From assembly GCA_012520645.1 (NCBI GenBank), contig JAAYNV010000031.1, positions 1-64,000 on the forward strand: a DNA stretch of 64,000 bases, given 5' to 3'. Made by a program: the position numbers and the translations under genes. The DNA comes from Clostridiales bacterium (GTDB lineage: Bacteria; Bacillota; Clostridia; Lachnospirales; Lachnospiraceae). Positions within the stretch are counted from its first letter, which is position 1; every line of letters begins with the position of its first letter. Shown here one piece after another: positions 43,468 through 49,714 of this stretch. The notes under the pieces are model-generated. The model saw only the letters and a program-made list of their open reading frames with translations, was not told the DNA's origin and searched no databases.

Positions 43468-43563
43468 AATTAGATACAATTAAGTACAACCTGCCTCGTT
43501 GATTTTTCTATTATGAAATAGTATACTAAGAGAGTCAGATAGAAGGAAATGGGAGGACATGCA

Positions 43564-44334
43564 ATGAGCGGAAGAATACATTCACTGGAGAGCTTCGGTA
43601 CCGTGGACGGACCGGGAGTCAGATTTGTCGTATTTGTGCAGGGATGCCCGATGCGGTGTGCTTACTGCCATAATCCGGATACATGGGAAATGAATGCCGG
43701 TACGATCATGGAAGCGGCAGATATTATAGAGCAGTATGAAAGAAACAAGGGATTTTATCAGGATGGAGGCATTACTGTGACGGGCGGTGAGCCGCTAATG
43801 CAGGTGGACTTTCTGTTGGAACTGTTTGAGCTTGCAAAGCAGAAAGGGATTCATACCTGTATTGATTCTTCCGGTATTGCATTTAATGATAAAAATGCGG
43901 AATGGATGGAGAAGCTGGACAGGCTGATGACTATGACGAACCTTGTCATGCTGGATATCAAGCATATTGATCCGGTGAAGCATAAGGAGCTGACCGGACA
44001 GCCCAACGACAGGATTCTTGCTTTTGCGAAGTATTTATCTGAGAAGAATGTAGATATCTGGATTCGTCATGTGGTTGTACCGGGGATTACGGATGATGAT
44101 AAATATCTGTACCAGTTGGGCTACTTTATCGGTGGTCTGAGCAGTCTTCGCGCATTGGATGTGCTGCCTTATCATACGATGGGTAAGGTAAAGTATGAGA
44201 AGCTTGGAATCAAGTATAAGCTTGAGGATGTTCCACCAATGGATAAGGACAAGGTCATTGAGAAAAAGCAGGTCATTCTAGATGGCATACGTGCCAGAAG
44301 GGCGGAGAAAAATGAAGCAAAGGAAGAAAAATAG
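43564..44334 (+). CDS. pflA: Pyruvate formate-lyase-activating enzyme (radical SAM)
   Basis: SGRIHSLESFGTVDGPGVRFVVFVQGCPMRCAYCHNPDTW with CxxxCxxC cluster. Confidence 0.96.
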   Translation: MSGRIHSLESFGTVDGPGVRFVVFVQGCPMRCAYCHNPDTWEMNAGTIMEAADIIEQYERNKGFYQDGGITVTGGEPLMQVDFLLELFELAKQKGIHTCIDSSGIAFNDKNAEWMEKLDRLMTMTNLVMLDIKHIDPVKHKELTGQPNDRILAFAKYLSEKNVDIWIRHVVVPGITDDDKYLYQLGYFIGGLSSLRALDVLPYHTMGKVKYEKLGIKYKLEDVPPMDKDKVIEKKQVILDGIRARRAEKNEAKEEK

Positions 44335-44497: not shown

Positions 44498-44668
44498 ATG
44501 GCATTTGCAATTTCTGACGCTTGTGTAGCATGCGGAGCATGTGAAGCACAGTGCCCGGTTGGCGCTATCAGCATGGGAGACGGTAAGTTTGAAATCGACG
44601 CTGAAAAGTGCATCGACTGCGGTTCCTGCGCAGGACAGTGCCCGACAGGTGCTATTGAACAGGCATAA
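44498..44668 (+). CDS. 2x[4Fe-4S] ferredoxin
   Basis: MAFAISDACVACGACEAQCPVGAISMGDGKFEIDAEKCIDCGSCAGQCPTGAIEQA. Confidence 0.97.
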   Translation: MAFAISDACVACGACEAQCPVGAISMGDGKFEIDAEKCIDCGSCAGQCPTGAIEQA

Positions 44669-45778: not shown

Positions 45779-46024
45779 TTAGATAGCTTCGTGGAAAGTT
45801 CTGCTGATTACGTCAGCCTGCTGTTCCGGAGTTAATTTGATGAAGTTAACTGCGTATCCGGATACACGGATTGTTAACTGCGGATAGTTTTCCGGATGCT
45901 TCTGAGCGTCTAATAAAGTATCTCTGTTTAATACGTTTACGTTAAGGTGATGTCCGCCTTTTGTTGCGTAACCATCTAATAATGCTACCAGGTTATCTAC
46001 CTGAGCTGTACTTGCTGTACTCAT
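45779..46024 (-). CDS. Glycyl-radical C-terminal piece of split pyruvate formate-lyase (GrcA/YfiD-like)
   Basis: [74 protein letters not shown] includes the RVSGYAV glycyl radical loop; start re-assigned to ATG 46024 after AGGAGG. Confidence 0.93.
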
Positions 46025-46060
46025 GTCAATTCCTCCTATAATCATTCAAAATATTTTTAT

Positions 46061-46261
46061 TCAAATCTTATCATCAAGACCTTCTTGAAGGGTCGGTACA
46101 CTGCATGCCAATGGATTTTTGGAACAATCCGCACACCCCATTGTTTCTACGGTATTGCCGGAAAGTGTGTTGTCGGTATCGACATTCACATGTCCGACGC
46201 CGTTTGCGAAACCAGAGTCCAGCATTTTTACGATGTCGTCAATCAAAGCTTTGTCGTCCAT
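46061..46261 (-). CDS. Small Cys-rich protein resembling the N-terminal half of the PFL glycyl-radical domain
   Basis: MDDKALIDDIVKMLDSGFANGVGHVNVDTDNTLSGNTVETMGCADCSKNPLACSVPTLQEGLDDKI; IDDIVKMLD..GHVNV parallels [14 protein letters not shown] of the adjacent GrcA-like piece; RBS AGGGAG upstream. Confidence 0.7.
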   Translation of the reverse strand: MDDKALIDDIVKMLDSGFANGVGHVNVDTDNTLSGNTVETMGCADCSKNPLACSVPTLQEGLDDKI

Positions 46262-46296
46262 GGGTTCCACTCCCTTCTGACGGATAAGGAACTACA

Positions 46297-46320
46297 GGAA
46301 CTCCGTATTGGCGGAGTTCC
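46297..46320 (-). other. Intercistronic hairpin downstream of pfl
   Basis: Perfect 9-bp stem GGAACTCCG/CGGAGTTCC between pfl stop and the small Cys-rich ORF. Confidence 0.7.
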
Positions 46321-46337
46321 ATGTACAGGTTCCGTAA

Positions 46338-48377
46338 TTATTTATTTAAGTCGATTTCGATATCGCCAGCGAATACCTGATCTTCTTTTCCAAGAGCACC
46401 CGGAATGATGGTGAAGGTATTGGAAATACCATCCTGTGCATCCTTGAACGGAAGTTTGGATACAGAAGATAAGGAAGCTACTGCACCGTGAGTATCACGT
46501 CCGTGCATCGGGTTAGCACCCGGAGCGAACGGCTGACCTTTCTTACGTCCATCCGGTGTATTACCTGTTGCTTTACCGTATGTTACGTTAGAAGTAATGG
46601 TCAGGATAGAGGTTGTCGGAACACCGTTTCTGTAGGTATGGTGTCTTCTTACAGCTGTCATGAATCTATGAACAACTTCCTGTGCGATGGAGTCTACACG
46701 GTCATCATCGTTACCATATTTCGGGAATTCACCGGTTGTCTTGAAGTCAACGATGATTCCGTCTTCGTCACGAATCGGCTCAACCTTAGCGTACTTGATA
46801 GCAGATAAGGAGTCAGCCACGATGGAAAGACCTGCAACACCTGTTGCGAAGTAACGCTTAACGTCTCTGTCATGAAGAGCCATCTCTGCTCTCTCATAGC
46901 AGTATTTGTCGTGCATGTAGTGGATGATGTTCAGTGTGTTAACATAAACATCTGCCTGCCACTCCAACATGTCCATGAATTTAGCCCATACATCATCATA
47001 ATCAAGAACATCGCCTTCAACCTTGCGGTATTTCGGTCCAACCTGTTTCTTGGTTACTTCGTCGATACCACCGTTTAAAGCGTACAGTAAACATTTCGCA
47101 ACGTTAGCACGTGCTCCGAAGAACTGCATTTCTTTACCGATAACCATGGAAGATACGCAGCAAGCGATGCCGTAATCATCACCATGAGTTACTCTCATCA
47201 GGTCATCGTTCTCATACTGGATGGAAGATGTCTGAATGGAAGTCTTAGCACAGAATTTCTTGAAGTTTTCCGGAAGTCTTGTAGACCAGAGTACTGTCAG
47301 GTTCGGCTCCGGAGACGGTCCAAGGTTGGATAATGTGTGTAAGTAACGGAAGGACATCTTTGTAACCATGTGACGTCCGTCAACACCAACACCACCAAGA
47401 GACTCTGTTACCCATACCGGGTCACCAGCGAAGATCTGGTTGTATTCCGGTGTACGAGCAAACTTGATGCAACGTAACTTCATAATGAAGTGGTCAACAA
47501 ATTCTTGAATCTGCTCTTCTGTGAAAGTACCGTTTGCCAGGTCTCTCTGAGCATAAACATCAAGGAATGTGGATGTACGTCCAAGGGACATAGCAGCACC
47601 GTTCTGCTCTTTTACTGCACATAAGTATCCGAAGTATACAGCCTGAATAGCTTCCTGTACGTTAGAAGCCGGCTTGGAAATATCGCAGCCATAGGAAGCA
47701 GCCATTTCCTTCATCATCTTCAGAGCAACCATCTGCTCGGAAAGCTCTTCACGAAGACGGATTACATCATCTGTCATGACACGTCCTGTGGAATCCTTCT
47801 GCTCCTGCTTATCTTCGATCAGTCTGTCAATACCGTACAGAGCAACACGTCTGTAGTCGCCGATGATACGTCCGCGTCCGTAAGCATCCGGAAGACCTGT
47901 GATGATATGTGCGGAACGGCATGCTCTCATTTCCTGATTGTAAGCATCAAAGCAGCCTGCATTGTGAGTTTTTCTGTGTGTGGAGAAGAACTCGCTGATT
48001 TCCGGATCTACTTCATATCCGTTGTCTGCGCAAGCTTTCTCTGCCATTCTGATACCGCCGTACGGCTGTAAGGAACGTTTGAAAGGCTTGTCTGTCTGGA
48101 AACCTACGATTGTCTCTTTGCTCTTGTCAAGGTATCCAGGACCGTGGGAAGTAATTGTGGAGATGACTTTGGTGTCCATATCCAGGACGCCGCCTGCTTC
48201 ACGCTCTTTCTTCTGTAAATCAAGTACCATTGCCCAAAGGTCTTTTGTGTTCTGTGTAGGTCCTGCAAGGAAGGAATCATCTCCGTCGTACGGAGTATAG
48301 TTTCTCTGGATGAAATCACGTACGTTGATTTCAGTGTCCCATTTGCCGCCTACAAAATCTTTCCATTCTGGTCTCAT
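46338..48377 (-). CDS. pflB: Pyruvate formate-lyase core (formate C-acetyltransferase) lacking the glycyl-radical C-terminus
   Basis: [26 protein letters not shown] active-site Cys pair; ends ...[29 protein letters not shown], without RVSGYAV. Confidence 0.93.
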
Positions 48378-48627: not shown

Positions 48628-48819
48628 ATGGCTGATATTACAAAAAATATGACGATCGGTGAGATCTTAAGAACCAATCCGGATGTAGCACCTGTTTTAA
48701 TGGAGGCAGGAATGCATTGTCTTGGATGTCCGTCTGCACAGGCAGAGAGTCTCGAAGAGGCAGCGATGGTACATGGTATCGATATTGATGAACTGATGAG
48801 CAAAGTGAATGCAGTTTAA
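48628..48819 (+). CDS. DUF1858-type redox disulfide domain protein
   Basis: [61 protein letters not shown]. Confidence 0.9.
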
Positions 48820-48928: not shown

Positions 48929-49714
48929 TTACAATTTGGAAAGTGCCTGAACAGCATTGTCTTTTATGACCGGTTCATAGTGTTCTTCCAGATAGGCTTC
49001 CCCGGCAGCGGCAAAACGTTCCGGAGAAGCATACTCCGAAAGAATATTGCATACCTTGTTGAATTCTTCCGGGGTATGGTCTGTCTTTGCGATTACAAGC
49101 ATGTACCTTCCGGTCGACGCATTTTTGTACAGTGAGTTAATTCCTTGATAAAAATTGTTGAGAACATGGGACAGCCGTGTTACACCGTTTAAAGAGTCAA
49201 AGGAAAAAATCCGGGTTACATCCACATCGGGAGCAGCCGGTCTGACCGCTTTGACAGCGGACGCTTTGGAGTCTGCGGCTGTTTTGTCGTTAGAGTCCGG
49301 TTCTTCTTCGCGGTCTTGTTTGGAATTTCCAATGCGGCCTTCCTGTATCCGGCGGAAGAGATCGAGCACATCATCGGCCCCCTTGGCAAGAAGGTTTTCC
49401 TCTGTATTCGGTTCTTCATCGTGCACCGAAGGAGCAAACTTGGAAAAACGGGTATCCAGTTCCTCCGGATCCTCCACTTTGGTAATAATGAGGACGATAC
49501 ACTCGGAATTTAAGGGGATAGCTTCTATCATAAGAGGAATATCCTCTGCTTCAAAACCAAATTCGTAGGACGCCTGCTGCATCATATCGCGGAAGAGGTT
49601 TTTTGCTTTCTCTGTTCCGTATGCAAGTTCGCTGATCTTTAGCTCACGGTCTGCAAGATCGCTTTTCGTCAGAGTACAGCGAATCTGATTGTCATTGACT
49701 TTTTCGATTTTCAT
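48929..49714 (-). CDS. mecA: Adaptor protein MecA
   Basis: MKIEKVNDNQIRCTLTKSDLADRELKISELAYGTEKAKNLFRDMMQQASYEFGFE. Confidence 0.92.
   Translation of the reverse strand: MKIEKVNDNQIRCTLTKSDLADRELKISELAYGTEKAKNLFRDMMQQASYEFGFEAEDIPLMIEAIPLNSECIVLIITKVEDPEELDTRFSKFAPSVHDEEPNTEENLLAKGADDVLDLFRRIQEGRIGNSKQDREEEPDSNDKTAADSKASAVKAVRPAAPDVDVTRIFSFDSLNGVTRLSHVLNNFYQGINSLYKNASTGRYMLVIAKTDHTPEEFNKVCNILSEYASPERFAAAGEAYLEEHYEPVIKDNAVQALSKL

Follow-up and report, generated by a model that had tools for sequence, protein, structure and literature searches.

A cysteine-tailed small protein encoded between the core and the detached glycyl-radical subunit of split pyruvate formate-lyases in Lachnospirales

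Pyruvate formate-lyase (PFL) is a central pyruvate enzyme in gut and rumen anaerobes, and is cleaved by oxygen at its radical glycine. In E. coli, strand 10 of the PFL barrel is replaced by YfiD, a free glycyl-radical subunit (GRD), whose docking and activation are affected by residues 696-733 of the damaged core (PMC8683613). In other glycyl radical enzymes (GREs), small Cys-bearing subunits bind the catalytic subunit, including HPAD gamma, BSS beta and gamma, and MASS beta, gamma and delta; some GRE accessory subunits control GRD opening or thiyl radical formation, and those of HPAD, BSS and MASS bind Fe-S clusters or a single Fe and have HiPIP-like or rubredoxin-like folds (PMC12358834, PMC12590467). 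The separation of PFL into a core and a GRD is already known to NCBI annotation as GrcA3 (NF038360), and the two-piece PFL is common to many gut Lachnospiraceae.

A split PFL locus with an additional gene between its two pieces was analysed in the window, the whole 64,000-nucleotide stretch of contig JAAYNV010000031.1 from a Clostridiales bacterium. The features of the locus are as follows:

46338..48377, (-) strand: split PFL core, 679 aa, with the active-site ACCVSS present and a Cys-free acidic C-terminal tail
46297..46320, (-) strand: strong hairpin with a 9-bp stem in the gap between core and MID, GGAACTCCG-loop-CGGAGTTCC
46061..46261, (-) strand: MID, an unnamed 66-aa accessory protein with a GRD-docking-like helix and strand, a variable linker and a Cys tail
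46178..46261, (-) strand: MID residues 1-28, homologous to the GRD docking segment (hhalign)
46073..46144, (-) strand: MID residues 40-63, the Cys tail, TMGCADCSKNPLACSVPTLQEGLD, with C46, C53 and P56 invariant
45779..46024, (-) strand: detached GRD, 81 aa, with the RVSGYAV Gly loop (NF038360, GrcA3)
44498..44668, (+) strand: 2[4Fe-4S] ferredoxin (NF058577, 87.8 bits), a conserved neighbour of PflA
43549..44334, (+) strand: PflA, the radical SAM PFL-activating enzyme (TIGR02493, 298 bits, cut-off 231.75)

An earlier note on this DNA, made from the letters alone, had the PFL ending at the entry to its glycyl-radical domain and the domain itself encoded as a separate ORF, and the family matches agree. 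The core scores 1086 bits against TIGR01255 (formate C-acetyltransferase, cut-off 994) over profile positions 2-665 of 744, the C-terminal 79 model positions being absent, and matches PF02901 with an E value of 2.7e-220. The 106 positions of Pfam Gly_radical are divided between the two proteins, the core holding 1-51 only and the GRD 50-106, and the GRD belongs to GrcA3 with 160.4 bits against NF038360 (curated cut-off 158) over positions 2-78 of 78. The split core is the one PFL-like gene in the source genome (88% complete), with no full-length PFL found elsewhere in it, and the split enzyme is therefore the PFL of this strain; an apparent anaerobic ribonucleotide reductase is also encoded. 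In relatives, PflA usually lies directly 3′ of the GRD. A gene for MecA, the ClpCP adaptor (48929-49714), and one for a DUF1858 redox-disulphide domain protein (48628-48819) flank the core and are recurrent PFL neighbours in relatives. A second GrcA3-type radical subunit, 89% identical to the GRD of the window, is encoded with no PFL near it (G000 contig C26, L032:7880-8125); several relatives likewise have an isolated second GRD copy, which looks like a true spare part.

MID has no match in Pfam and no real match in NCBIfam, and is a conserved gene under purifying selection. The MIDs of relatives are about 40-77% identical and lie between core and GRD. Scanning named genomes gave more than 500 confirmed related stretches, from which 80 loci were kept; a split core with a Cys-free tail is directly upstream of MID in all 80, an intact GRD is downstream in 78 (the remaining two being a contig end and a broken GRD), and a Shine-Dalgarno-like motif precedes MID in 78 of the 80. 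Across 88 sequences the median dN/dS is ~0.11, and non-synonymous change (pN) is lowest in the Cys tail (0.056), followed by the N-half (0.115) and the linker (0.36). Selection, synteny and ribosome-site motifs thus all speak against the possibility, raised beforehand, that the middle ORF is unconserved or untranslated. Four residues, D15, C46, C53 and P56, are invariant across 26 divergent MIDs. These loci belong to Lachnospiraceae, the isolate Kineothrix alysoides KNHs209 among them; in a phylum-wide sample of 399 genomes true MIDs are restricted to the window's own family, and in the order-wide sample they occur in several families of the order. Two MIDs (L030, L031) end after the first Cys cluster. 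The hairpin between core and MID is not universal, as 27 of 80 relatives have a gap that folds below -8 kcal/mol; it is possibly an expression tuner, perhaps setting the amount of MID, or an mRNA end.

The N-half of MID is kin to the GRD. Aligning MID and GRD profiles with hhalign places MID residues 1-33 on the docking segment with a probability of 96.7% (E 3.2e-10, 35 columns), and NF038360 is weakly matched by 20 of 26 MIDs, with a best E of 6.6e-6. These matches show the homology of the N-half with the docking segment that had been read from the letters alone. MID accordingly has the docking-segment homology of GrcA/YfiD proteins; the Gly loop RVSGYA and the C-terminal helix that they also require are absent from all aligned MIDs. 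In their place are the variable linker and a tail of the form TMGCxDC....ACSVPTL, so that the proposed replacement of the Gly loop by a conserved Cys tail is upheld, C46, C53 and P56 being invariant. A third, rarer family of small proteins begins with a half like the MID and GRD docking segments (MIEEILKHLDGETESGVHRMSVNM) and continues into an HKCC..YGRPA.ETVGLLDMYTD tail; its members (G000 contig C68, L063:4251-4475; L064:4010-4249; L231; and, more loosely, L065:3948-4205) have no Pfam match and occur in 2 of 147 genomes of the order.

Structure prediction with AF2 used the core and MID of L019 as one chain read through stops; the alignment left GRDs out and had 17 rows with core plus MID and 56 with the core alone. 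The core was modelled with a mean pLDDT of 81 and a pTM of 0.84, and MID formed a helix (pLDDT ~79) and a short strand at GHV. The model matches E. coli PFL over 726 columns when superposed, with a TM score of 0.89 and an rmsd of 2.7 Å; this exceeds the 651 ordered core residues and fits a MID helix and strand at the position of the docking helix and strand 10. On this column count, the model suggests that MID could place its helix and strand in the GRD berth, which comprises a helix and barrel strand 10. The tail with the Cys is disordered (pLDDT 22-29), and thus the model does not show contact between tail and active site. A run with 41 rows was set aside for its poor core (pLDDT 67) and lack of a usable MID placement, as was an alignment with MID-only rows that placed MID tails on the active-site ACCVSS. 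Among solved structures in the PDB, no relative of MID was found.

The Cys tail has a counterpart on the core itself. Cores accompanied by MID have Cys-free tails in 26 of 26 cases, whereas in 12 of 13 split PFLs without MID a similar Cys motif forms part of the core C-terminus. These cis tails read IEECGNQACNIPNIMxSIDNE in L082 and L085, LECGVDSACAIPNLMVAVDD in L083, and DC[AL]CCEP in L080, L081, L084, L086, L087 and L090-L092; that of L186, from a genome of another order, is NTNFACSEPN, with a single Cys. The sole split PFL with neither MID nor Cys tail is L088, with the C-terminus EKPVLSGKR. A profile of the MID tail (positions 46-66) ranks three ACxIPN cores at the top of 38, matching at their C-termini with E values of 0.002-0.03. 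The motif common to both settings is likely [AL]Cx[VIE]P[TN], with some CCEP tails ending in CCEPG instead; for searches, ACx[VIE]P[TN] is the motif to use in place of GCxxCSxxPxACSVPTL, put forward earlier. Close relatives' MID tails carry three Cys (GCxDC..AC). MID residues 51-58 (46088-46111), LACSVPTL, also resemble the PFL active-site IACCVSSM at core residues 404-411, and MAFFT aligned MID LACSVPTL with the core active site; this likeness may be due to chance and is not taken as evidence.

Counted by genome, a MID is present with 26 of 27 Cys-free cores versus 0 of 12 Cys-tailed cores (Fisher 3e-9, uncorrected for kinship); on the tree this amounts to 3-4 changes between the cis and trans states, with independent pairs too few and a phylogenetic sign test not significant, so that the exclusivity of the two states rests on only ~3-4 independent changes. 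Two cores with Cys-free tails and no adjacent MID (L094, L198) have one far away in the genome. In three genomes the MID gene is displaced from the PFL locus (L023:8149-8346, L024:7695-7898 and L067:4916-5122), two of them having a distant split PFL with a Cys-free tail; in the third, which is 67% complete, the GRD was not found. As cores lacking MID are, L088 apart, Cys-tailed and cores bearing MID are Cys-free, the Cys element accompanies the detached GRD either in trans or in cis. It is plausible that the element arose first on the core and was later joined to a duplicate of the docking segment.

The order sample of 245 genomes gives the same association with the detached GRD, a free-standing GRD being counted as an NF038360 match in a short frame. 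All 44 genomes with a true MID are among the 58 that have a free GRD, and none is among the other 187, the restriction to split PFLs that the earlier note had suggested checking. Full-length PFLs of the order have no Cys motif in the linker, and no MID was found with them where checked. Three full-length PFLs without MID or Cys tail (L200, L201, L206) lie inside the split-PFL clade and are possible re-fusions; as the AU test does not reject a single clade of split cores (p 0.33), re-fusion is not claimed.

We propose, with a probability of roughly 0.42, that MID serves PFL specifically, as an accessory protein keeping the place of the GRD and bringing thiols to the open active site. While PflA activates it, or once oxygen has cleaved it, the GRD would be away from the core; MID would then fill the vacant berth and keep the core foldable while the GRD is absent, and its two thiols would come near the open active-site pair Cys418/Cys419 (E. 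coli numbering). The Cys tail could guard this site sacrificially or through a mixed disulphide and could also help to hand over the next charged GRD, and in species lacking MID a shorter thiol tail would sit directly on the core. The thiol function of the tail is one we infer. The proposal that MID caps the PFL docking site is consistent with the predicted placement; as a plug or competitor alone it fails to cover all cases, since in split PFLs without MID the Cys element is fused to the core. Such cis tails lack a docking half and have to coexist with the GRD; competition for the berth is thus unnecessary for the function of the Cys.

It follows from the same cis tails that the thiols must also work with the GRD present, which makes a role in assembly or activation the strongest rival. 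Here MID and the cis tail would be recognition elements that offer the detached GRD to PflA or settle it in place, in likeness to residues 696-733 of cleaved E. coli PFL, and the Cys would have a structural part, forming a disulphide or a grip on the GRD. The Cys element is present only with a detached GRD, rescue by YfiD in E. coli requires such an element (PMC8683613), and the cis tails are compatible with GRD co-binding; however, the contact is conjectural and the role leaves unexplained why the Cys are the most constrained residues, and it is considered rather unlikely. Thiols are able to quench glycyl radicals by established chemistry, and MID could instead be a deactivase whose Cys pair gives hydrogen to the glycyl radical under oxygen threat, forming a disulphide and sparing the GRD. 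The two invariant Cys are close in sequence, and the HPAD small subunit has been proposed to take part in radical reduction (PMC12358834), but the cis tail of L186 has a single Cys and the detached GRD is already replaceable from the second free copy in the source genome, making such quenching quite improbable.

An accessory subunit binding a metal or Fe-S cluster, in the manner of HPAD gamma, BSS beta/gamma or MASS delta, is less probable still: small Cys-bearing GRE accessory subunits do exist and close relatives of this MID have three Cys, but two invariant Cys in 26 MIDs are too few for such clusters in one chain, and MID has no similarity to solved structures. The two invariant Cys and the single-Cys cis tail likewise weaken the earlier idea of a metal sensor. 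That MID is a decayed, functionless duplicate of the GRD would account for its homologous N-half and lost Gly loop, but is scarcely credible against its low dN/dS, a tail invariant across Lachnospirales and ribosome sites of its own; the pseudogene reading was rejected, as selection and conservation contradict it, and the metal-site reading was set aside for the reasons given above.

A search of the open-access literature yielded no description of MID or of any PFL accessory subunit. New here is the Cys motif on the core C-terminus in split PFLs without MID, as against the Cys-free cores of those with MID. A broader reading, tentative and somewhat doubtful, is that Lachnospirales evolved a dedicated thiol guard for the exposed active site of a split GRE, either fused to the core or carried by the MID chimera. 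If so, it would be the first accessory subunit of any PFL and a new means of servicing a radical enzyme piece by piece. When the radical piece of a split PFL is disposable, the core has to be kept alive and safe during its absence. For this upkeep MID and the cis tail offer concrete, conserved candidates that also occur in cultured strains, Kineothrix alysoides among them, and the maintenance of split glycyl radical enzymes thereby becomes a question answerable in vitro.

Among described proteins, YfiD/GrcA and GrcA3 (NF038360) have a docking helix and strand homologous to the N-half of MID and are encoded beside or used with PFL. Unlike these, MID ends in a Cys tail, its family matches being weak and confined to the N-half, and because it has neither the Gly loop RVSGYAV nor the C-terminal helix it cannot carry the radical. 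HiPIP- and rubredoxin-type GRE subunits require four Cys ligands, whereas MID has only C46 and C53 invariant; in contrast to the HPAD, BSS and MASS subunits it has no such fold and is built from the docking segment of the GRD itself. For a GRE accessory subunit in the functional sense, one that binds the catalytic subunit and alters its activity, the placement predicted with the GRD absent is no more than suggestive. Residues 696-733 of E. coli PFL sit in the berth and affect free-GRD docking and activation (PMC8683613), as is proposed for MID; unlike MID, they are part of the PFL chain, with no Cys tail and no separate gene.
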